Of a DNA stretch of 64,000 nucleotides, positions 954-46,075 are shown piece after piece; position 1 is the stretch's first letter; each line of letters starts with the position of its first letter. Under the pieces are notes generated by a model, which saw only the letters and a program-made list of their open reading frames with translations, was not told where the DNA came from and searched no databases. The stretch is from positions 1 through 64,000 of the IMG/VR virus record IMGVR_UViG_3300021425_000029; one strand, 5' to 3'. The translations under genes and the position numbers were made by a program. This stretch comes from a virus.

Positions 954-2893
954 TACTTGGTTTCCCTATTCTTTGCTTTTGTACGAGCAAGTCTTGCACG
1001 ATCAAGAAGACTGTCATGTTTCTTCTTGTCCTGTTCCTTCTCCCGTTTGATCTTTTCCTTTGCCGTCTTAACCGCATCTTCTTGCATCGGAGTATCTTTC
1101 TTATACTTCTTAACTAACTCGTCAGTACCTTCCTCTCCCGCACCACTCTCGGTTACGAAATTACTCGGTAATAGATCGTGAAGAACCTTTCTGTCCACAC
1201 CACTGAATGATGATGCAACCTTTTGTGCGTAGTAGTGAGTACTGTGTCTCAGTGAACCACCACCCTCTTTCTTCTTACGAACCAATAACTTCTTGAGAGC
1301 ATCAAGGGCGTTTCCGTACACCTTCTTGTTGGTGGTGACTGACTTCAACTTATTAAGCATTTTACCTTCGGTCTGTTCCGTGGTTATCGTCTTCGATGTA
1401 GTCTTGAAGTTCTTCTTACGCATGATGGTTTTATTGATAACCTCGAACTCATCCTTGTTACGATCATAGTTGATCACAACAGGTAGGTTCAGATCAGTCT
1501 GTAAGTCTTTGATCACTGCTTCACTATCAGGATTCTGTCGAATGTTCTTTGCCTTTCTCTTGGCAATCTTCTTGAACACTCGTTGCAACTCTGCCACAGT
1601 GATAGGTGGATCATTGCGTTTATCGTTCATACGATCAGCGAAATGCCTCGTGAATTCGATGTCAACATCGAACTTTGCGAGTAGTCGGTCTGCGAACTTC
1701 TCAAGGTCATTGAGTTGTTTCTGACTGACTTCTTCGTACATATCCTTGAACTGTGTGGTGTACTTTGAAGGTTTCGTTTTAGCGGTCTTATCGCCTGGAG
1801 CGGGTTTATACGCAGATGGGTCATCATCAGCTTTCTTCCCGTGTTTCTTGAAGTGTGCGTCACGTTTCACCTTAGTAGACTTCTTGAGTCCCTTGTGATA
1901 ACGTGCGGGTTGCGTTCCTTCTCTGTCCTTGATGTCAGGGTCTTGTTTCTCTGCAACTCGTTTTGCGGTTGCAGTTGCGATTGCCATTTTCTTATCCATT
2001 GGCATATCGGGATCATCTTTCTCAATCGCCTTTGCGATCTCTTCTCGCTTCTTGAGTTCTGCGGGAGTGAGTTTCTTCTCTACCAGTTCTACCGCATCCA
2101 ACCACTTACGCAGTTTCTTGTCACCACATTCAACGATGACATAGTTCGAACCCAACACGGATACGATACCTACTTCTTCGCTTTCTTTGATAACAACAGT
2201 ATCACCCAGTTCAAACAGTTCGCCTTTAACAAACTGTTCTCTGATATCTGATACTTTGGGTAGTTCGATGTGGCGTTTGAAAGATGTCTCTTCCTTGAGA
2301 CCGAGACCCTTCCTTACGTCATTGAACAACTTACGGGTATCCTTGTCTGACATAGACTTAGGAACACCCTGTGTGAAAGATGTGTAATCATTATTCTTTG
2401 CATTTTCTCGTTGTTTGGATGCAGACATTCCTTCCACACCTTCTGCATCAGGGTCTCTTCGACCCGCAGATACAACAGAAATCTTTTCGAAATTGTAGAA
2501 TCCGTGTCGTGCCTTCTTACCGTTGTATTTGTTCAACAGGACATCAAACTCACGCAGACGATCTTCTCCGACCACCATAGTGATTTGTTTGTATCCTTGG
2601 TCATACAACTTTGCAGCGATATCGAATACATTCTTAACACCCTTATCCACCATGATGTTACGACCATACTTGGGGAACATCTTGCGTAGGTGTTTTACTT
2701 TGTCAGAATATGACAGTGGGTCTTTGGGGCCAACAGACTGAGACACATAGACTTTCCAGTCTGCACCTTTGGCCTTCTTTGCAATAGTATCTAATACCTT
2801 TCCGTGTCCAATAGTAGGAGGATTCATTCTACCAAATGTAAAATAAACTTCCTTCGTCTCTTCGACTAGATAGGATTTAAAATCTTTAATCAC
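953..2893 (-). CDS. Multidomain nucleotidyltransferase / DUF5872 protein
   Basis: A 646-residue protein starting at GTG 2893, behind GAGGTGG; a longer GTG at 2926 would overlap the upstream gene more. Residues 15-200 form a cytidylyltransferase-like nucleotidyltransferase: GRMNPPTIGH carries the (H/T)xGH signature, and VVGEDRLREF matches the second nucleotide-binding region. Residues 230-275 look like a small SH3/KOW-type beta module. Residues 328-387 contain ARYHKGLKKSTK and KTKPSKYT, which I read as DUF5872. Residues 405-500 (an FTRHFADRM pattern, then VVINYDRNKDEFEVI) resemble a DUF4258/RelE-like small nuclease fold. The tail is charged and helical. NTase-DUF5872 proteins occur in marine T4-like phages; the substrate is unknown. 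Confidence 0.8.
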   Translation of the reverse strand: MIKDFKSYLVEETKEVYFTFGRMNPPTIGHGKVLDTIAKKAKGADWKVYVSQSVGPKDPLSYSDKVKHLRKMFPKYGRNIMVDKGVKNVFDIAAKLYDQGYKQITMVVGEDRLREFDVLLNKYNGKKARHGFYNFEKISVVSAGRRDPDAEGVEGMSASKQRENAKNNDYTSFTQGVPKSMSDKDTRKLFNDVRKGLGLKEETSFKRHIELPKVSDIREQFVKGELFELGDTVVIKESEEVGIVSVLGSNYVIVECGDKKLRKWLDAVELVEKKLTPAELKKREEIAKAIEKDDPDMPMDKKMAIATATAKRVAEKQDPDIKDREGTQPARYHKGLKKSTKVKRDAHFKKHGKKADDDPSAYKPAPGDKTAKTKPSKYTTQFKDMYEEVSQKQLNDLEKFADRLLAKFDVDIEFTRHFADRMNDKRNDPPITVAELQRVFKKIAKRKAKNIRQNPDSEAVIKDLQTDLNLPVVINYDRNKDEFEVINKTIMRKKNFKTTSKTITTEQTEGKMLNKLKSVTTNKKVYGNALDALKKLLVRKKKEGGGSLRHSTHYYAQKVASSFSGVDRKVLHDLLPSNFVTESGAGEEGTDELVKKYKKDTPMQEDAVKTAKEKIKREKEQDKKKHDSLLDRARLARTKAKNRETK

Positions 2894-3269
2894 TCTTCTT
2901 TCCACCTCGTTTTCTCTCCAGTTCACCCTTGCGAACCTTCGGAAGTATTTTCTTTGCGAGTTTATCTATCTTGGGTTTCATCTTATCTAGGCGTTTCTCA
3001 ATGGACGCTCTGCGACCCATTGACAGTTCACCCTTGTCAACACCCTTAGTGATTTTTTTGAAGATAGTCATCCGTGCCTGTTTCTGGGCACGCTTCTTGA
3101 GAGTATCAATATTTGCAACTTTACGAGCAGCTCTTTTGCGACCCATTGCAATCTTTGCTTTATTCTTCTTGAGAGAACGAGCGAGTTTCATACGCTGTGG
3201 GAGCGTTAACGCCTCGTCAGGTGATTCAACCACCTTTATGAATTCTTTTAGTCCCATTGGTTTGGACAT
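2886..3269 (-). CDS. Very basic hypothetical protein
   Basis: A 127-residue protein dominated by Lys and Arg (KKNKAKIAMGRKRAARK, GRRASIEKRLDKMKPKIDK), predicted mostly helical. It starts at ATG 3269 behind GAGGTAAAC. The short distance to the KxDG gene upstream and the 8-base overlap with the nucleotidyltransferase downstream indicate co-translation. High positive charge suggests nucleic-acid binding or packaging inside the head. The family has no function I know. Confidence 0.75.
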   Translation of the reverse strand: MSKPMGLKEFIKVVESPDEALTLPQRMKLARSLKKNKAKIAMGRKRAARKVANIDTLKKRAQKQARMTIFKKITKGVDKGELSMGRRASIEKRLDKMKPKIDKLAKKILPKVRKGELERKRGGKKSD

Positions 3270-3272
3270 AGT

Positions 3273-4493
3273 TTACCTCTTCGGTTTTTCCCATCCCTTC
3301 AGTATATCTGGACTGAAGTTGTTATACGAAAATTCTAGACGATCAACCAACTTGACCGCATCACCACCTAATTTATCGATAGCAACAAATCCTTCTGCAC
3401 CTGTCTTGACCTTATAACCTTTCTTGGTCTGAACAAACGAGTCTATAGAACTTATGCTATTTAATTTATTTATAAGTTTTAACTTCGCAAGAACAATACT
3501 TTTTTGCAAATCAAACATCTGAACTAGTGATTTTTTATTCCTTGGAGAGAAGAACTTCAGGATGTCATCCAACTTCTGTTGTTGAACCATCTTACCCTTT
3601 TCGGTTTTGCGTTTCTCCATCTCTGCTTTGAATTTGGTGTTAATCCACTTGATTAAACCTGTTACGTGCGTATTACTGTTAGGAATCACAGTTTGAAGCC
3701 GCACAAAAGTGTTATTATACTGTTCGATCAGTTGTGCAAGGTCTTGATTCTTCTCTAACTCACGCAGAGTAGAACCAGCGATCTTGTTGAATATCTTACC
3801 CGCATCGGATAGATGTTTGGTTACTTCGGCAGTCTCTTTCTTATCCATAGTCGCACCAGACACATCACGTAACATTGCATCCTGTGACCAGACATTGGAA
3901 GAGTTCTTAAACTTCGATACATCCACACCATAGGATGCCTTCATTGATTCAAAGTCTTTACCCGTGTAAGTAGTGTGCCAGACGATGCCAATCTTCGCCT
4001 TACGCAATGCATCTGCTTGGTCATAGGGAACTGCATAGATGATTGTGTTAGGATGGAAGGTCACATACTTCTGACCATCGATAGTATCTGTCTTGATGTC
4101 TGGTTTTGAGAACAAGAAGTCACCTTGAATGACACCCTTGATACCCAGTTCAGGTAGATGTTTCAATGCGAGTTTCATCTTGTCTGCAAGGTCACCCGAC
4201 ATATCCGCATCAATCTCTTGGGCAGACTTATAGATTTTAGGATTCTTTGCAAAGATACCTTTCTTCGCAACAAAGAAGTTTCCGTCATTGGGGTCTTCGC
4301 CACAGAAGATTGCGGGCGCACCATCCCACTTGGTTGACAGTTTACTCTTGGTCTCACCCGCCAACATATCACGGAGTTCTCTCAGTGCATTGATTGCCTG
4401 TCGAGTACCGTTGACACCACCATAGAGAACCTTGTCCTCAATGTGAGTCATGTGAGTGTTCTTCTGTTCTGTTATGAAGTCTTTAAATTCCAT
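3273..4493 (-). CDS. KxDG-motif protein, DUF6267-like, possible ligase-fold nucleotidyltransferase
   Basis: A 406-residue protein whose ATG shares a base with the upstream stop (TAATG). Near residue 55 it has KWDGAPA, which matches motif I (KxDG) of the covalent nucleotidyltransferase superfamily (ATP-dependent DNA ligases, RNA ligases, capping enzymes), where the lysine is adenylylated. About 65 residues later GVIQGDFLF resembles motif III, and VTFHPNTIIYAV follows. A long helical C-terminal half (residues 230-370) does not resemble known ligase domains. I believe this is the DUF6267 family of phage proteins. A ligase or related activity is inference from motif order, and motif V is not obvious. 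Confidence 0.7.
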   Translation of the reverse strand: MEFKDFITEQKNTHMTHIEDKVLYGGVNGTRQAINALRELRDMLAGETKSKLSTKWDGAPAIFCGEDPNDGNFFVAKKGIFAKNPKIYKSAQEIDADMSGDLADKMKLALKHLPELGIKGVIQGDFLFSKPDIKTDTIDGQKYVTFHPNTIIYAVPYDQADALRKAKIGIVWHTTYTGKDFESMKASYGVDVSKFKNSSNVWSQDAMLRDVSGATMDKKETAEVTKHLSDAGKIFNKIAGSTLRELEKNQDLAQLIEQYNNTFVRLQTVIPNSNTHVTGLIKWINTKFKAEMEKRKTEKGKMVQQQKLDDILKFFSPRNKKSLVQMFDLQKSIVLAKLKLINKLNSISSIDSFVQTKKGYKVKTGAEGFVAIDKLGGDAVKLVDRLEFSYNNFSPDILKGWEKPKR

Positions 4494-5806
4494 TATGACA
4501 CCTTCAAGTGAACAGCGGAGTTCTTTGTTTGGGATTTCGCAATACGAACCAGATAGTCCAACACTTGTTGTTCCCTACCCTTAATCGCAGTGAATAGTTC
4601 GACTACCATGTATTTGGATACCTGCCATTCAAACGGTTTCTTTTGTAGATTCGCAATCAGAGTATCTCTATCGTCTCTCTCATTGGTCATCGAATAGTTC
4701 TTCCAGAAGTTATCATAGAACATTTCTGGATTCTTTTTCAACATCTGTTCGATAGTTCTCTTATCGGTCAGTGGTCTACCAGTTGCTTCCTTCATTGCAT
4801 CACTGATACCACCATAGGATACCTTACCGTGTTTTGCCTTGTTGCCGATAATCTCACACTGGAATGTCGGGAAGGTTCTGAACTGGAGTTGGAATCCACC
4901 AGACCCATACAAGTATCCATCCTTTGCACCATAGAAGTTCTTCTTACCAAAAGTCTGTTTGGTGAACTGAGGTGCTTTGAATGGTTTACGGAAATTGACT
5001 TGTGATAGTTTGGGTTTCTTACCAGTCTTCTTGAGAGAGATACCCATGATGTCACGAGCGGCATACGCCTTGAGTAACTCGTTATTCAACTCAGAGATAC
5101 TGGATGCATTAAGAATATTGTACTTGTTCTCTGCACCACGAGCGACTGCCCAGATATCTGCGGGAGTCCACTTGTTGACATTACTGAATAGTTTCTCTTC
5201 ACGGTTGAGTTTCTTGAATGTGTTTTCAAGTGCATCAACCCATGACGAACCACGATGCCATGTGTACTGTTTCTTTTTCAATACCTTGTGAAGTATCTTC
5301 GCACCATTGATAGATGATGCAATCCACTGGTCATCCTTCAGTAGAATTTCATCTATCTTTGCATCGGTCTGTGTTTTCTGGAATGCCGCTTTGAGTTCGT
5401 CTGGAGAGAACTTTGTATTGGGGTTGTCCCATAACAATTGTGCATAGACACATTGGGCGGCTTCGGTTGCACGAGTGTTATCTGAACCCGCACCCGAACC
5501 AGATGTTCCACCACCAAACTCTTGAGTCTTTTTGAGTAGACCAAAGGACACTGATTCACCATCAAGTGTCTTGAGTGCCTTGGTGGGTAACCCTTTCTTA
5601 TCCCCTGTACGGACTGCCTTTTCTACTGCGGGGTCATACTGAAGAACAATCGAATCACCCTTGGTGGTCTCGAATGGTTCACCCGCTTTGTACTTCTTAA
5701 TGAATAGGTCAGCACGATACGCCCTATCTGGACGAACGATTTCCCCAAAGGTTAATGAGGTCTCTATAAGTTGACTAAACTGAAGCATCGATTTCCCATA
5801 AGTCAT
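4493..5806 (-). CDS. Hypothetical late protein with KTxEFGG motif
   Basis: A 437-residue protein, first gene after the TATAAATA promoter at 5825-5832. Two starts are possible: ATG 5806, or ATG 5788 (MLQFSQLI), which has GGGAAA at better spacing. Near residue 95 it carries LLKKTQEFGGG followed by a Gly/Ser stretch. Later segments are rich in Lys and aromatic residues (GKKNFYGAKDGYLYGSGGF). There is no membrane segment. It is co-translated with the KxDG protein downstream. I cannot assign a family; a DNA-processing or virion role is possible from the company it keeps. Confidence 0.75.
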   Translation of the reverse strand: MTYGKSMLQFSQLIETSLTFGEIVRPDRAYRADLFIKKYKAGEPFETTKGDSIVLQYDPAVEKAVRTGDKKGLPTKALKTLDGESVSFGLLKKTQEFGGGTSGSGAGSDNTRATEAAQCVYAQLLWDNPNTKFSPDELKAAFQKTQTDAKIDEILLKDDQWIASSINGAKILHKVLKKKQYTWHRGSSWVDALENTFKKLNREEKLFSNVNKWTPADIWAVARGAENKYNILNASSISELNNELLKAYAARDIMGISLKKTGKKPKLSQVNFRKPFKAPQFTKQTFGKKNFYGAKDGYLYGSGGFQLQFRTFPTFQCEIIGNKAKHGKVSYGGISDAMKEATGRPLTDKRTIEQMLKKNPEMFYDNFWKNYSMTNERDDRDTLIANLQKKPFEWQVSKYMVVELFTAIKGREQQVLDYLVRIAKSQTKNSAVHLKVS

Positions 5807-12333: not shown

Positions 12334-14154
12334 TTATGACAGAAAAGTATAGATGTCAATGAGTTCTTCTTTACCCTTGACTTTGATCTGACCTATCGAT
12401 CTCGATTCAATGTTGGTAAGTTGTTCCATTGTGTTACTGGAGTAGATTGTTTTATATTCGAGATAGTCTCCTCGAGCGGCCGTTGCTTCGAGTCTTGCGG
12501 CAAGGTTGACTGCATCTCCGATGACTGAGTAGTCAAAACGAGATTCACTACCCATATTACCAACAATGCAATCACCTGTATTGATACCAGTGCCAACATT
12601 GATGGGGGGTAGACCCTGTTCGCTATATCGTTGTCTGAGTTCATTGGTTTTCTCTTCTATCTCTATCGCAGACTTCACTGCCATCTCTGCGTGGTTCTCA
12701 CATGGGAGGGGAGCATTCCAGAATGCCATTATACAATCACCCATGTACTTGTCGATTGTGCCACCGTTATTTAGTATAATGTTAGTCATTTCATTGAGAT
12801 AATTGTTAATTAATGTGACCAAACCTTCTGCATCGTCTCTGTTCTTGTAGTGTTCCGATATGGGGGTGAAACCACAGATGTCCATAAACAAGAAGGTCAT
12901 CTCTTTTCTCTCACCACCCAACTTCATTAGACTCGGATCGTTGGCCAACATATCAACCATGTCGGGTGATAGGTATGTGCCGAACTGTCCCTTAATCATT
13001 TGTTTCGCTTTGAACTGTGTGTAGAACTGAACAAATGAACCGTGTGCAAATACTAGGGTCAAAGTGATGATGGGGAATGTCGGGTCTAGTTGTACATAGT
13101 GTGTACCAAACAATTCATAAACCGTGTACAGAATACCACCGATTATGATAAAATATGATACACCTGATACGAGTATATTAGCCCTCCCTAACAGAGCTAG
13201 GAGTATAACACACAACACAAGAGTTGTCAAGACCTCATAGAAAATAAATTCTGATGGTCTCTTGAGAACTACTCCATCGATCATTGTCTTGATTAGGTTT
13301 GCTTGAATGTCATGGGGATACATTGCACCCATCGGTGTAGATACCACATTAGAACCTTCAAAGGTTGCGCCTACAATAATAATCGAACCTTCGGGTATCT
13401 GGTCTAGTTCAGTGAATGAATATCTCTTGAACTCATTCCAGTATGCGATTGTAACTGTACCCGTTACATCTGTAGTGATTGGTTTGAACTTGGGTATACG
13501 AACAAACTCAATACCATAGTCATCTGTGGATATCTGGTAGGACGAATCACCAGCCGCAACTCTGAGTACATCTAACGCAAATGCGGGATAGAGTCGATTG
13601 TCAAAGTTCTCTAGTAGTGGTTGTCTACGAATGATACCATCCACATCTTGGGCAGATGAGATTGTACCGTAACCAAACGAGTTGTCATGGATGATTGGTT
13701 GTGCAAACAACATACCTTCCAGTTCTGGTCGGAAGTCCTCGGCATCCCTGTCACCGAATGTCGCAGTACCGATACGAGGTGGACGATAATCTGTGTTGGT
13801 TCGATTGGATGGTGCGATTGCGACTACTGCTTGTTTCCACGATAGGATATCTGCAAAGTATTCGTCTCCTCCGAATCTGTCTGGTTCTGAAAACAAGATA
13901 TTCAGACCAATCAGACTATTCTCAATCTTGTCGATCTCGTCTGCCATTACTCTTCGGGGAATGGGATACTGTCCGAATTTGTCCAGAGTTTTCTCATCGA
14001 TATCCACCAGTACAATCTGTTCGGATACCGCAGTCTCTTGACTTCTCTGAAGAGAATCAAAAAATGAGAGTCTTGCACTCTCTAATAGAAAGGGGTCAAG
14101 TAATCGTATACCTACCATCAACCCCAGTGTGATAAGTACTTGCCATGTCTTCAT
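12334..14154 (-). CDS. CHASE2-domain class III adenylate/guanylate cyclase
   Basis: A 606-residue membrane cyclase. Residues 1-23 form a first membrane helix, 40-300 a CHASE2 sensor domain facing the periplasm (VLVDIDEKTLDKFGQYP and GSIIIVGATFEGSNVV are typical), 303-375 three membrane helices, and 415-600 the class III catalytic domain. Metal ligands D425 (FLFMDICGFT) and D473, the adenine-selecting K469 (TIDKYMGD) and D547, and the transition-state N550/R554 (VNLAAR) are all present, so it should be active and probably makes cAMP. Its ATG overlaps the stop of the FecR-domain gene (ATGA). FecR and CHASE2-cyclase neighbours are common in proteobacterial chromosomes; in a phage this is remarkable. 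Confidence 0.93.
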   Translation of the reverse strand: MKTWQVLITLGLMVGIRLLDPFLLESARLSFFDSLQRSQETAVSEQIVLVDIDEKTLDKFGQYPIPRRVMADEIDKIENSLIGLNILFSEPDRFGGDEYFADILSWKQAVVAIAPSNRTNTDYRPPRIGTATFGDRDAEDFRPELEGMLFAQPIIHDNSFGYGTISSAQDVDGIIRRQPLLENFDNRLYPAFALDVLRVAAGDSSYQISTDDYGIEFVRIPKFKPITTDVTGTVTIAYWNEFKRYSFTELDQIPEGSIIIVGATFEGSNVVSTPMGAMYPHDIQANLIKTMIDGVVLKRPSEFIFYEVLTTLVLCVILLALLGRANILVSGVSYFIIIGGILYTVYELFGTHYVQLDPTFPIITLTLVFAHGSFVQFYTQFKAKQMIKGQFGTYLSPDMVDMLANDPSLMKLGGERKEMTFLFMDICGFTPISEHYKNRDDAEGLVTLINNYLNEMTNIILNNGGTIDKYMGDCIMAFWNAPLPCENHAEMAVKSAIEIEEKTNELRQRYSEQGLPPINVGTGINTGDCIVGNMGSESRFDYSVIGDAVNLAARLEATAARGDYLEYKTIYSSNTMEQLTNIESRSIGQIKVKGKEELIDIYTFLS

Positions 14155-42346: not shown

Positions 42347-42943
42347 TTAGTCAACTATAAAATTACTTAAATCTGAATCTGCTTTGACGGTACGCCTCTT
42401 GCGTTCCTTCTTAACAATCTCCTTCCACACACTATCCTTATCTTTCACTTCATCAATACGAGTTCTGAGTTGATCAACAAACGCCTGTGCGACTTGTGCA
42501 GATTGGTCATCACCCAACTCATTATCAAGGAAAGCTTCAACACCAGTCTGTTCCATATACTTCATCTTGATGTCTTGTTGTTTCTTTTCTTTCTCAATCC
42601 TACGCAAGAACGCAAACCACGAAATCTGTGTGAAGTATGCAAACGCATTAGGTTTACCTGTACGAGTCGCTGCTTCGATGTTGTAGTTCTCAATCGCCTT
42701 GAGACAGTTTTCTACCGCATCCATCACCATCTCTTCCCGATAGGTGTATCGGACAAAGTTTGCCTTATGTGATAAACCCTCACATATCTTGAGGAAACAC
42801 TGTGCAATATAATCAGGCACAACAGGTAACGGAGATGAACTTGATTTCGCTTCCTGTACAGTCGTGCAGTAGTCTACCACCGCTTGGGAGAACTGTGCAT
42901 TGTTTACATAATGCGGTTTGTCTTTTGGTTTAATCTTTGCCAT
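42347..42943 (-). CDS. 55: Late-transcription sigma factor gp55
   Basis: A 198-residue sigma-like protein (T4 gp55 is 185). FAYFTQISWFAFLRRIEKEK is the region 2-like helix that reads the TATAAATA element, and TYREEMVMDAVENCLKAIEN precedes it. The TATAAATA sites in this window fit it. ATG 42943 follows GGAAATTGAAA and a promoter at 42974-43002. Confidence 0.94.
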   Translation of the reverse strand: MAKIKPKDKPHYVNNAQFSQAVVDYCTTVQEAKSSSSPLPVVPDYIAQCFLKICEGLSHKANFVRYTYREEMVMDAVENCLKAIENYNIEAATRTGKPNAFAYFTQISWFAFLRRIEKEKKQQDIKMKYMEQTGVEAFLDNELGDDQSAQVAQAFVDQLRTRIDEVKDKDSVWKEIVKKERKRRTVKADSDLSNFIVD

Positions 42944-42973: not shown

Positions 42974-43002
42974 ATTATAGATGATGTTGTAATAAAAGTC
43001 AA
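42974..43002 (-). promoter_or_regulatory. Sigma70-type promoter for gene 55
   Basis: TTGACT (43002-42997), 17 bases, TATAAT (42979-42974). It is divergent from a plus-strand promoter at 43027. Confidence 0.82.
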
Positions 43003-43026
43003 GTCAAATATTTTTTAAATTAGGTC

Positions 43027-43055
43027 TTGACATTTTCTGATTTTGCGTGTATAAT
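43027..43055 (+). promoter_or_regulatory. Perfect plus-strand promoter pointing antisense
   Basis: TTGACA (43027-43032), 17 bases, TATAAT (43050-43055): twelve of twelve consensus bases. Nothing on the plus strand downstream looks like a gene; the RNA would run antisense into the gene at 43089-43538. Just after the start GGGAGGGT and ACCCTCT can pair. Confidence 0.78.
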
Positions 43056-43088
43056 TAGCTTTGCGTTCTGGGAGGGTTGAATACCTCG

Positions 43089-43538
43089 TTAATGTACCCT
43101 CTTAGGATCGAACATATCAATCACATTAGACCCGCTATCCATACGAGAGAGATACTCGTCAATCTTATCTTTAACATTCTTTTTACTTTTGTCCACCTTT
43201 TCCTGAAATGTTTGATTGTATTCCTGTTCTCTTGTCTCATTCATTTCTGCCATATCAACAACAGCTGCATTATACTGAACAAGTAGAGTCTCGGGCGGGA
43301 AACCGATACCCACAATACTATTGAGATTTAATATAATAATATCATCGGGATGTTCCTGATATACCATCCAAGGTCTAAAAGAGAAATACTTAATTCCATC
43401 GGTAGTTTCTTGCAGAACTAGTTTCATAGCCTTTCTGATTAAAATTTCTGTTTCGTATCCATCATTCCATTGCACGACTTCACACACCACTTCTTCTCCA
43501 GAAGTTGTTTTAAACTGTCTTAATTCAGGTTCGTTCAT
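43089..43538 (-). CDS. Sm-like-fold candidate protein
   Basis: A 149-residue protein. Residues 6-95 look like a small beta barrel (FKTTSGEEVVCEVVQWNDGY, EILIRKAMKLVLQETT, IIILNLNSIVGIGFPP), compatible with an LSm/Hfq-like fold, followed by a charged helical tail (VDKSKKNVKDKIDEYLSRM). It overlaps uvsW by four bases. RNA binding would be expected if the fold call is right. An antisense promoter faces it from 43027. Confidence 0.65.
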   Translation of the reverse strand: MNEPELRQFKTTSGEEVVCEVVQWNDGYETEILIRKAMKLVLQETTDGIKYFSFRPWMVYQEHPDDIIILNLNSIVGIGFPPETLLVQYNAAVVDMAEMNETREQEYNQTFQEKVDKSKKNVKDKIDEYLSRMDSGSNVIDMFDPKRVH

Positions 43539-45019
43539 TTTAAATCCAATTTATAAATTTTGTAAGGAAACTGCTCAGTTGTATATATCTTAATTCTTTC
43601 TGCACTGTGTCGCAGTGTAAAGTTCTTGTGTGACTTGATATGCATATCATCCGCAATATCATATAACTTGGTCACAGACCCATCATCAGACTGTCTCAAT
43701 CCACGCCCTATGGACTGTAGTACTTTTACTTGGGACTTGCTAGGACTGGCGAATATAATATTATGTAAGTTCCTAATATTAATACCAGTACTGAAAGTAC
43801 CCAAACTAGCAACAATGATCGCATTCTTCTGTTTCTCCACAATACCACGAATCTGTTCACGGTCAGAGGCCTCAACTTCACCAGACACATAGTATACAGG
43901 ACGGTCACCCGCCTTATCTCTTATCTGGTCAAACAAAGGTTTACCATGTTTCTCCACGAACTGGAACAGAACCAGAGAGTTACCTTTCTGGTCTAACGCA
44001 AGGTTGGTTATAAGTCTATTACGACTCTCATTTTGAACAATGTAGTCCATCTCTTCTTGGTAGGTGTAGTCCTTTACCATATGACATATATCATTGTGAT
44101 AACGCAACAACAATACAGAGATGTCTATCTTCGCAAGTGTGCCTTTCTCTTGTAGGTCTTTGGTCATGGTGACTCGTTTGGTTGGCCCGAACAGACCTTC
44201 AAGTACGAGTTTGTTTGTTTCTGTACCGTCTAGTGTGCCCGTAGTGCCGAATCGATACTCAGCATTGACACACTTGTTCATGATACCTGACAGGGACTTC
44301 GCCTTAAATAGATGCACCTCGTCACCAAACACACAACCCATATCCTCGAACCATTCTCTCGGAAACTTGTAGATGGACTGCCATGTAGAGATGATGATAG
44401 GTTTGTCGGTTGTCTTGTCCTTACCACTATAGATACGATGTACATTGTTCGCAACATCATATCCATAGTCTTCAAAGTCTTTGTACATCTGTTCTACCAG
44501 ACTTGTTGTCGGAACAACAATGAGTATCTGTTTATCAAAGTTGTCCATATACCAACGCAACAGGTTATAGATGATAAACGACTTACCACTACCAGTCGGT
44601 GACAATAGGATTGCCCGTTTCTTTTCGATACCATGTGTTACAGCATCATACTGGTAATCACGCAACGGAAACGGCAAGTTCAGTTCTCCCTGAAACTTAA
44701 CAAGATTCTGGTGTTGGACATGATTGGTTTGTGCGGGATGACCATAGTCTGTCTCCTGTAGTTGGAGAGGATACATACGGTCAGAACAGAACTTCTTCAG
44801 ATGTTCGTAGAGACCCGTGTTGAGTTCACGAGTAATCTGATTAAAGAGTTTGATTTTGCCATCCCATTTACGAGACTTGTACGCAGGCATGAACTTATAG
44901 CCAGGCACAAAGAACGAGAAGTAATCCCGCAACTCTTGGAGTTGGTGTTGGTTACAATCAACCAACATCATGGAATGGTCTTTCAATCCAACAGTAATGG
45001 TATTAGGTAATGTAGTCAT
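43535..45019 (-). CDS. uvsW: Recombination helicase UvsW
   Basis: A 494-residue SF2 helicase. ILLSPTGSGKSFIIYNL (motif I, 137-153), GDEVHLF (motif II, DEVH), FGTTGTLDG (motif III), and QSIGRGLRQ (motif VI). In T4 UvsW processes recombination intermediates and turns off origin replication by unwinding R-loops. Next to uvsY, as in T4. Confidence 0.95.
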   Translation of the reverse strand: MTTLPNTITVGLKDHSMMLVDCNQHQLQELRDYFSFFVPGYKFMPAYKSRKWDGKIKLFNQITRELNTGLYEHLKKFCSDRMYPLQLQETDYGHPAQTNHVQHQNLVKFQGELNLPFPLRDYQYDAVTHGIEKKRAILLSPTGSGKSFIIYNLLRWYMDNFDKQILIVVPTTSLVEQMYKDFEDYGYDVANNVHRIYSGKDKTTDKPIIISTWQSIYKFPREWFEDMGCVFGDEVHLFKAKSLSGIMNKCVNAEYRFGTTGTLDGTETNKLVLEGLFGPTKRVTMTKDLQEKGTLAKIDISVLLLRYHNDICHMVKDYTYQEEMDYIVQNESRNRLITNLALDQKGNSLVLFQFVEKHGKPLFDQIRDKAGDRPVYYVSGEVEASDREQIRGIVEKQKNAIIVASLGTFSTGINIRNLHNIIFASPSKSQVKVLQSIGRGLRQSDDGSVTKLYDIADDMHIKSHKNFTLRHSAERIKIYTTEQFPYKIYKLDLK

Positions 45020-45034
45020 ACATCTATATATGTC

Positions 45035-45484
45035 TTACATACCAGCTTCAAAACTCTTCCATCTTATCATGTTGGAAATTGTTTGATGTCGCCAATTTAG
45101 ATTGTTTACTATCTCCGTGAGAGTCTCAATCAGTGTCTTCAAATACTGAATCTTCATCTCAGACTCTTGGATTTCCTTATCGGAATCGTAGTAGTACTCT
45201 TTGAAGTTCTTGGTGGTTGCACTCAACCCATCATAGGGATCGTATGCCCAACCACGAGATTCAATATCCTCTTGAGACATCTTACCTTCGTAATAGAGAT
45301 ACTTGTCTTTGAGTAGAACCTTCTGTTTGAACTCCGCTTGTTTCAGTCGCAGTTTAGTCAGAGACAGGTACTCAAGATACTTAGCATGAAGAGCTGGTGT
45401 TGCCCTTGAAGTTTCATCAAGTTGATGTTGGGGTATTTGGGAGTCTTCTTTCCACTCCGCAAGGATGCTTTCTAAATCAATCAT
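45035..45484 (-). CDS. uvsY: Recombination mediator UvsY
   Basis: A 149-residue protein (T4 UvsY is 137). IDLESILAEWKEDSQIPQ, then YLEYLSLTKLRLKQAEFKQK and the C-terminal NNLNWRHQTISNMIRWKSFE match UvsY. It loads UvsX on gp32-coated DNA. The ATG coincides with the predicted transcription start and lacks a Shine-Dalgarno. Confidence 0.93.
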   Translation of the reverse strand: MIDLESILAEWKEDSQIPQHQLDETSRATPALHAKYLEYLSLTKLRLKQAEFKQKVLLKDKYLYYEGKMSQEDIESRGWAYDPYDGLSATTKNFKEYYYDSDKEIQESEMKIQYLKTLIETLTEIVNNLNWRHQTISNMIRWKSFEAGM

Positions 45485-45490
45485 AATGTA

Positions 45491-45520
45491 ATTATACTAT
45501 AAGTTAGGGTTTAAAGTCAA
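45491..45520 (-). promoter_or_regulatory. Sigma70-type promoter, predicted leaderless start
   Basis: TTGACT (45520-45515), 18 bases, TATAAT (45496-45491), six bases (TACATT), then ATG 45484. Confidence 0.8.
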
Positions 45521-46067: not shown

Positions 46068-46075
46068 TATTTATA
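46068..46075 (-). promoter_or_regulatory. T4-type late promoter TATAAATA
   Basis: Exact octamer 23 bases before ATG 46044, with a leader containing AAGAGG. Confidence 0.82.

Follow-up and report, generated by a model that had tools for sequence, protein, structure and literature searches.

In the T4-type phages RB49 and phi1, the gene downstream is driven by short cassettes called PeSLs (promoter-early stem-loops), each made of a sigma70 promoter and a terminating stem-loop. Antisense transcription has been described elsewhere: in cyanophage S-PM2, the antisense RNA CfrI maps to the 3' side of psbA (Millard et al. 2010, as summarized in PMC5931967), and in E. coli, antisense promoters at gene 3' ends repress, collision and antisense RNA contributing about equally (PMC4731013). 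In phage T4, UvsW is the product of a late promoter and dismantles the origin R-loops from which replication begins (PMC3016281). Cyanophages, pelagiphages and other marine T4-like phages abound in the ocean. When methods developed for cyanophages were applied to pelagimyophages, middle and late promoters were not detected (PMC7029224).

In this report, we analyzed a 64,000-nucleotide window, part of the 67-kb virus record of a marine T4-like phage, together with related loci. Our main finding is a predicted sigma70 promoter, designated element E, that opposes the 3' end of the operon upstream of the late sigma factor gene, gp55. The comparisons demonstrate its position, orientation, placement relative to the stop codon, deep conservation and agreement in -35 dialect with the gp55 promoter; in most of the sampled marine T4-like phages, an early antisense transcript is probably made there. 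We found no description of E in the open papers searched, and it is unannotated in the records examined, but it may already be visible, unnamed, in cyanophage start-site data.

A promoter facing the uvsY-uvsW-Sm block

Nearly all genes of the window lie on the - strand, in the order uvsY, uvsW, Sm-like gene, gp55 and gp47 (Table 1). Element E occupies the gap separating the Sm-like gene from gp55 and points into the former. Its hexamers, TTGACA (43027-43032) and TATAAT (43050-43055), match the sigma70 consensus at all 12 positions, and their 17-bp spacing lies within the 16 to 18 bp expected of such promoters. No other 12/12 match exists between 40 and 47 kb or on the + strand of the whole window, the remaining ones (7848, 9865, 18706, 30541, 33793 and 48440) all being on the - strand. 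The initial annotation had reported such a perfect promoter directed into a gene of the opposite strand and divergent from that of gp55; both observations are confirmed here, and the first extends to other phages. Judging from the -10, the RNA would be expected to start at about 43062-43063. A promoter opposing a gene from just past its stop codon has the orientation expected of a cis-antisense RNA locus of the CfrI type.

Table 1. Element E and neighboring features of the window
Feature	Position	Strand	Evidence or remark
gp55, late sigma factor	42347..42943	-	phrog_234, 2.5e-51
gp55 promoter, TTGACT-17-TATAAT	42974..43002	-	11/12
Nucleotidyltransferase gene-start remnant ATGTCAAGACCTAATTTAAAAAATATTTGA, MSRPNLKNI*	43004..43033	-	direct reading against L006/L010/L018
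Element E promoter, TTGACA, 17-bp spacer, TATAAT	43027..43055	+	conserved in relatives
Initially transcribed region of E, TAGCTTTGCGTTCTGGGAGGGTTGAATACCTCG	43056..43088	+	reaches Sm-like stop codon
Sm-like protein gene, 149 aa, faced by E	43089..43538	-	phrog_471/527 group
uvsW helicase gene, overlaps the Sm-like gene that follows it	43535..45019	-	Pfam UvsW_N, 8.1e-19
uvsY, first gene of uvsY-uvsW-Sm block	45035..45484	-	Pfam UvsY, 6e-23
Sigma70-like promoter before uvsY, TTGACT-18-TATAAT, opposed by E	45491..45520	-	
T4-type late promoter box TATAAATA, before structural gene-uvsY-uvsW-Sm block	46068..46075	-	

The only + strand open reading frame at E (43077-43286, 69 codons, TTG start) is cut to about 15 codons in a relative with 67% identity (L018); a + strand gene is therefore implausible, as had been claimed, and a small + strand peptide was rejected, the frame being lost in relatives. 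Past gene loss has left a trace here: L006, L010/L014 and L018 have an intact nucleotidyltransferase gene that begins on the -35 box of E, and in the window this gene is reduced to nine codons overlapping that box, showing that a gene was lost beside a promoter that remained.

The Sm-like gene was only a possible one in the initial annotation, and structure prediction of its product has since borne out that assignment. The AlphaFold model (pLDDT 90.6) combines five or six strands with a long helix at the C terminus; its top match in the PDB, 3by7 (Z 12.5, rmsd 1.6 over 82), is a metagenome-derived Sm-like protein, which a profile search also recovers (E 7.8e-15), and spliceosomal Sm/LSm chains score Z 6-7. 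The modeled protein is thereby confirmed as a genuine Sm fold. Its match to Pfam Sm_like remained under the cutoff, and cyanophage annotations label the family 'methylamine utilization'.

Conservation at gp55 and at a second position

Close relatives (L003-L005, 67% identical, and L019) carry an identical 12/12 promoter and start region after the Sm-like stop codon, and the gene that follows E in them is a nucleotidyltransferase or a cupin, not gp55. In L006 and L010/L014, where a 2OG-oxygenase gene is inserted after the Sm-like gene, E is found at the end of the oxygenase gene.

For a wider survey, 80 loci were retrieved with gp55 as the anchor, and in 58 of the 73 usable ones a promoter scoring 10/12 or more runs antisense near an upstream stop codon. 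A stricter count considered 72 distinct gp55-upstream loci and accepted only promoters of at least 10/12 just past the stop of the preceding gene: such promoters occur at 54 of the 72 gp55-upstream 3' ends versus 1 of 160 3' ends elsewhere in these loci, and 5% of dinucleotide shuffles (19 of 360) reach this score. Lowering the cutoff to 9/12 yields 61 of the 72 loci, but also 21% of shuffles. After clustering at 80% gp55 identity, E is present in 42 of 55 clusters. Antisense promoters of 11 to 12/12 also occupy this gap in the isolates C48C1, HTVC008M, Mosig, Syn9, S-RSM4 and P-RSM4. At roughly one gp55 locus in four the element is missing or weak, which may reflect loss or promoters under the cutoff.

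The -10 of E mostly lies about 28 to 36 nt from the opposed stop codon, whereas between E and gp55 there may be as few as 18 or as many as 852 nt; where genes have been inserted (L212, L227, L232, L245 and L275), E remains at the upstream stop codon, 440 to 852 nt from gp55. The steadiness of the one distance and the variability of the other indicate that it is the end of the opposed operon to which E is tied.

Three -35 variants, TTGACA, TTTACA and TGTACA, occur among these phages, and in 45 of 52 phages E and the gp55 promoter belong to the same class. Such agreement is expected if one polymerase form uses both promoters. Common ancestry could add to it, but the agreement persists in 34 of 39 comparable clusters at 80% identity. 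At gp55 loci such as L216, L218, L220, L254, L266 and L273, both promoters have a TGTACA or TTTACA -35, which may point to a holoenzyme with another preference or to a middle-promoter dialect of the phage. In the gp55 gaps of Syn9 (L206) and P-RSM4 (L208), the two divergent -35 boxes overlap in a near-palindrome, TTGACAAACTTGTCAA, so that both cannot be occupied simultaneously.

Pattern scans revealed E, including its ..GGGGARRGYTGAATAC, in a second position, facing the 3' end of the terminase gene gp17; one contig carries both a gp17-facing and an Sm-facing copy. Among 43 distinct gp17-gp18 gaps, 13 contain E (at least 11/12, with the -10 at 28 to 34 nt from the stop) and the other 30, that of the window included, contain no site above 9/12; E is therefore optional there. 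The genes whose 3' end it faces are thus varied: Sm-like, 2OG-oxygenase, radical-SAM or gp17. A match in L017 was spurious, and several other scan matches were dropped as they lacked a -35 or the motif.

Further observations were made during these scans. In podophages of the HMO-2011 type, a strong promoter with an E-like start region, ..GGGAGGGTTGAATAC, diverges from terS (L075, 5386 -; L096, 10312 +; L131; L158; L162; HTVC115P, L200; HTVC103P, L201; HTVC033P, L202). It is followed by 400 to 900 gene-less nt and by a conserved TATATATAC plus a G-rich stretch, and in HTVC115P a terminator-like sequence lies about 80 nt past the start. In the window, the - strand ORF 12334-14154 appears by eye to encode membrane segments and an adenylate/guanylate cyclase-like domain; a candidate inside it (13230-13180 -, TTGACA-17-TATACT with E-like TAGCTCTGTTAGGGAGGGCTAATATAC) was rejected as not significant (nhmmer E 0.15-0.6). 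Another marine phage contig, L103, carries a glutamine riboswitch at 4639-4791 (Rfam RF01739, 42 bits) and, by eye, IscU/IscA-like Fe-S assembly genes at 2476-3280.

The start region and RNA folding

The initially transcribed region of E is shared with L018, L019, L010, L023 and others, and its first 25 nt or so are common to copies of E that face different genes. Bases 16 to 24 after the -10 are G-rich and T-poor (33-59% G and 0-22% T across 54 loci); they are followed by (G/A)(T/A)ATAC and then by the stop codon of the opposed gene. Across phages the start region drifts widely, and it is its composition that is kept, not a seed sequence. A second conserved start region, unlike that of E, is the leader ACTTGTATTGAGAATGAG, which several of the sense early promoters of the window (9865, 18706, 33793, 47836 and 48440, all -) share directly after the -10.

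The RNA had been proposed to begin with a pairable element. The pairing does exist in the window, where GGGAGGGT (43070-43077) can pair with ACCCTCT (43096-43102), and a folding energy of -18.5 kcal/mol (z -1.7) was obtained for the first 75 nt, a value matched by 17 of 200 shuffles. Folding is not conserved over 64 loci (mean z of -0.13 with 26 nt and of -0.27 with 60 nt), and the hairpin has its 3' arm in Sm codons that differ among relatives; a structured RNA is unsupported for these two reasons. Other candidate hairpins, UUCAG/CUGAA and AGCUU/RRGCU, suit some copies and were rejected for their poor fit to the window or to L006. An Rfam search at E gave no match, and BLASTN of E regions against phage records returned only short unrelated matches. 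Scanning genome contigs for E gave four matches, in unrelated bacteria (Treponema, Oscillospiraceae, Paenibacillus and Clostridia), and E therefore does not resemble a copy of a conserved host gene.

At the phage T5 N25 promoter, the initially transcribed sequence is known to modulate escape (PMC12464699). We infer that the start region of E likewise aids escape or early elongation, and does not act as a folded or pairing RNA. Of the interpretation first given to this locus, the antisense promoter and the Sm-fold neighbor stand; the proposal that E and the Sm-like protein form a riboregulatory unit is unsupported, since E faces the 3' ends of 2OG-oxygenase, radical-SAM or gp17 genes in other phages.

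Possible functions and known counterparts

Our preferred reading, offered tentatively and at somewhat less than even chances, is that E is an early antisense promoter whose target, until gp55 takes over, is the uvsY-uvsW(-Sm) operon and, in certain phages, gp17 as well. Host RNA polymerase with a sigma70-type factor would read E early in infection, yielding a non-coding transcript against the operon 3' end, and the purine-rich, T-poor start could make E strong without a folded RNA by helping the polymerase leave the promoter. Head-on polymerase collisions and antisense RNA would then restrain the distal genes, those of UvsW, the Sm-like protein and terminase, and this restraint would fade once gp55 redirects polymerase to late promoters. 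UvsW and terminase may be proteins that the phage wants late. The position of E at the end of the uvsW operon, its recurrence at gp17, the lateness of UvsW in T4 and the E. coli precedent make an early opposing promoter the best-supported reading. It is also favored by the late box TATAAATA that precedes the opposed block, one of nine in the window (2.8 expected); another precedes gp18. Several observations count against it. The sigma70-like promoter before uvsY implies that the opposed block is not purely late, E is lacking or weak at about one in four gp55 loci and in 30 of the 43 gp17-gp18 gaps, the HMO-2011-type podophages have a similar promoter and start motif with no opposed gene, and in T4 itself the convergent uvsY and uvsW units are parted by a terminator.

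It is conceivable, though unlikely, that E is a boundary element in which convergent transcription blocks read-through from uvsW-Sm or gp17 into the following unit, replacing a terminator. E always stands at the end of a unit, at the stop codon, and no convincing terminator was found between the Sm-like gene and gp55 in the window. For such a task, however, a promoter devoid of a conserved start region would suffice, which leaves the region common to unrelated copies unexplained, and most gp17-gp18 gaps do without E.

A weaker rival to the antisense promoter, and a rather improbable one, is a transcription-primed origin, the counterpart of T4 oriF (ori(uvsY)), where a G-rich R-loop would prime the leading strand and later be removed by UvsW. 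A G-rich, T-poor non-template strand favors R-loops. That of E has this composition right after the start, and the element as a whole is promoter-based, about 100 bp long and adjoins uvsY/uvsW. Moreover, the T4 oriF transcript is likewise directed to the uvsW 3' end (NC_000866 annotation), and T4 oriE uses an early promoter (PMC3016281). However, T4 oriF and oriG possess an AT-rich unwinding element (PMC3016281) and none was found downstream of E (65.4% AT versus 64.2% overall); neither C48C1 nor the window has a GC-skew turn at E, although some T4 origins also lack one; and a gp17 copy in some phages only would not be explained. We give a similarly low probability to a broader reading, in which E is a conserved transcription-primed control site with the G-rich first 25 nt as the signal, and would be equivalent to oriF or else serve as an antisense switch that forms an R-loop and is removed by UvsW itself. 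If true, these 25 nt of a non-coding transcript would tie together early transcription, replication and the late switch.

Two further proposals we consider quite unlikely. The first, raised by the initial annotation, is that E tunes gp55, the back-to-back promoters competing for polymerase or sharing supercoiling and so delaying the late sigma and late genes. The pairs are divergent at most loci, with abutting or overlapping -35 boxes in Syn9, P-RSM4, S-RSM4, L217, L223, L226, L247 and L290; but E does not follow gp55 when genes are inserted between them, and it is also present at gp17-gp18. The second is that E encodes a small trans-acting RNA, or a riboregulatory partner of the Sm-like protein, with the conserved 5' end as its seed. 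The 5' end shared by copies facing different genes and the real Sm fold next door fit this proposal, whereas the exchange of the opposed gene among phages, the drifting sequence, the lack of conserved structure or Rfam match and, in the window, of a terminator after a short RNA argue against it. Finally, a single AT-rich gap may hold a promoter-like sequence by chance, as the shuffles reaching 10/12 illustrate, but the enrichment at gp55-upstream ends, the conservation and the -35 dialect match make this very improbable.

That these phages retain a strong antisense promoter at a single place points to an overlooked layer of timing control, and cultured phages (Syn9, P-HM2 and HTVC008M, for example) allow E to be tested directly, in part from existing strand-specific RNA-seq. 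Like PeSLs, E is a short, strong, intergenic sigma70 promoter cassette found at more than one site; unlike them, it has no conserved stem-loop or terminator-like site and points at a gene 3' end. With the engineered antisense promoters at gene 3' ends (PMC4731013) it shares its geometry, a constitutive sigma70 promoter opposing a gene from its 3' end; those promoters are synthetic and were assayed in E. coli, whereas E is natural and predicted from sequence. T4 oriF/ori(uvsY) resembles it as a non-late promoter by uvsY and uvsW whose transcript runs towards the uvsW 3' end (PMC3016281; NC_000866). The oriF transcript, however, is the uvsY mRNA and has an AT-rich unwinding element, whereas that of E would be non-coding and without one; we rejected the convergent uvsY/uvsW layout of T4 as a parallel, a terminator separating the two units there. 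CfrI (cited in PMC5931967) is alike in being cis-antisense, in a lytic marine T4-like phage and from the 3' side of a gene. It concerns psbA in one phage, whereas most of the marine T4-like phages examined have E, with its predicted transcript, where the uvsW operon ends.
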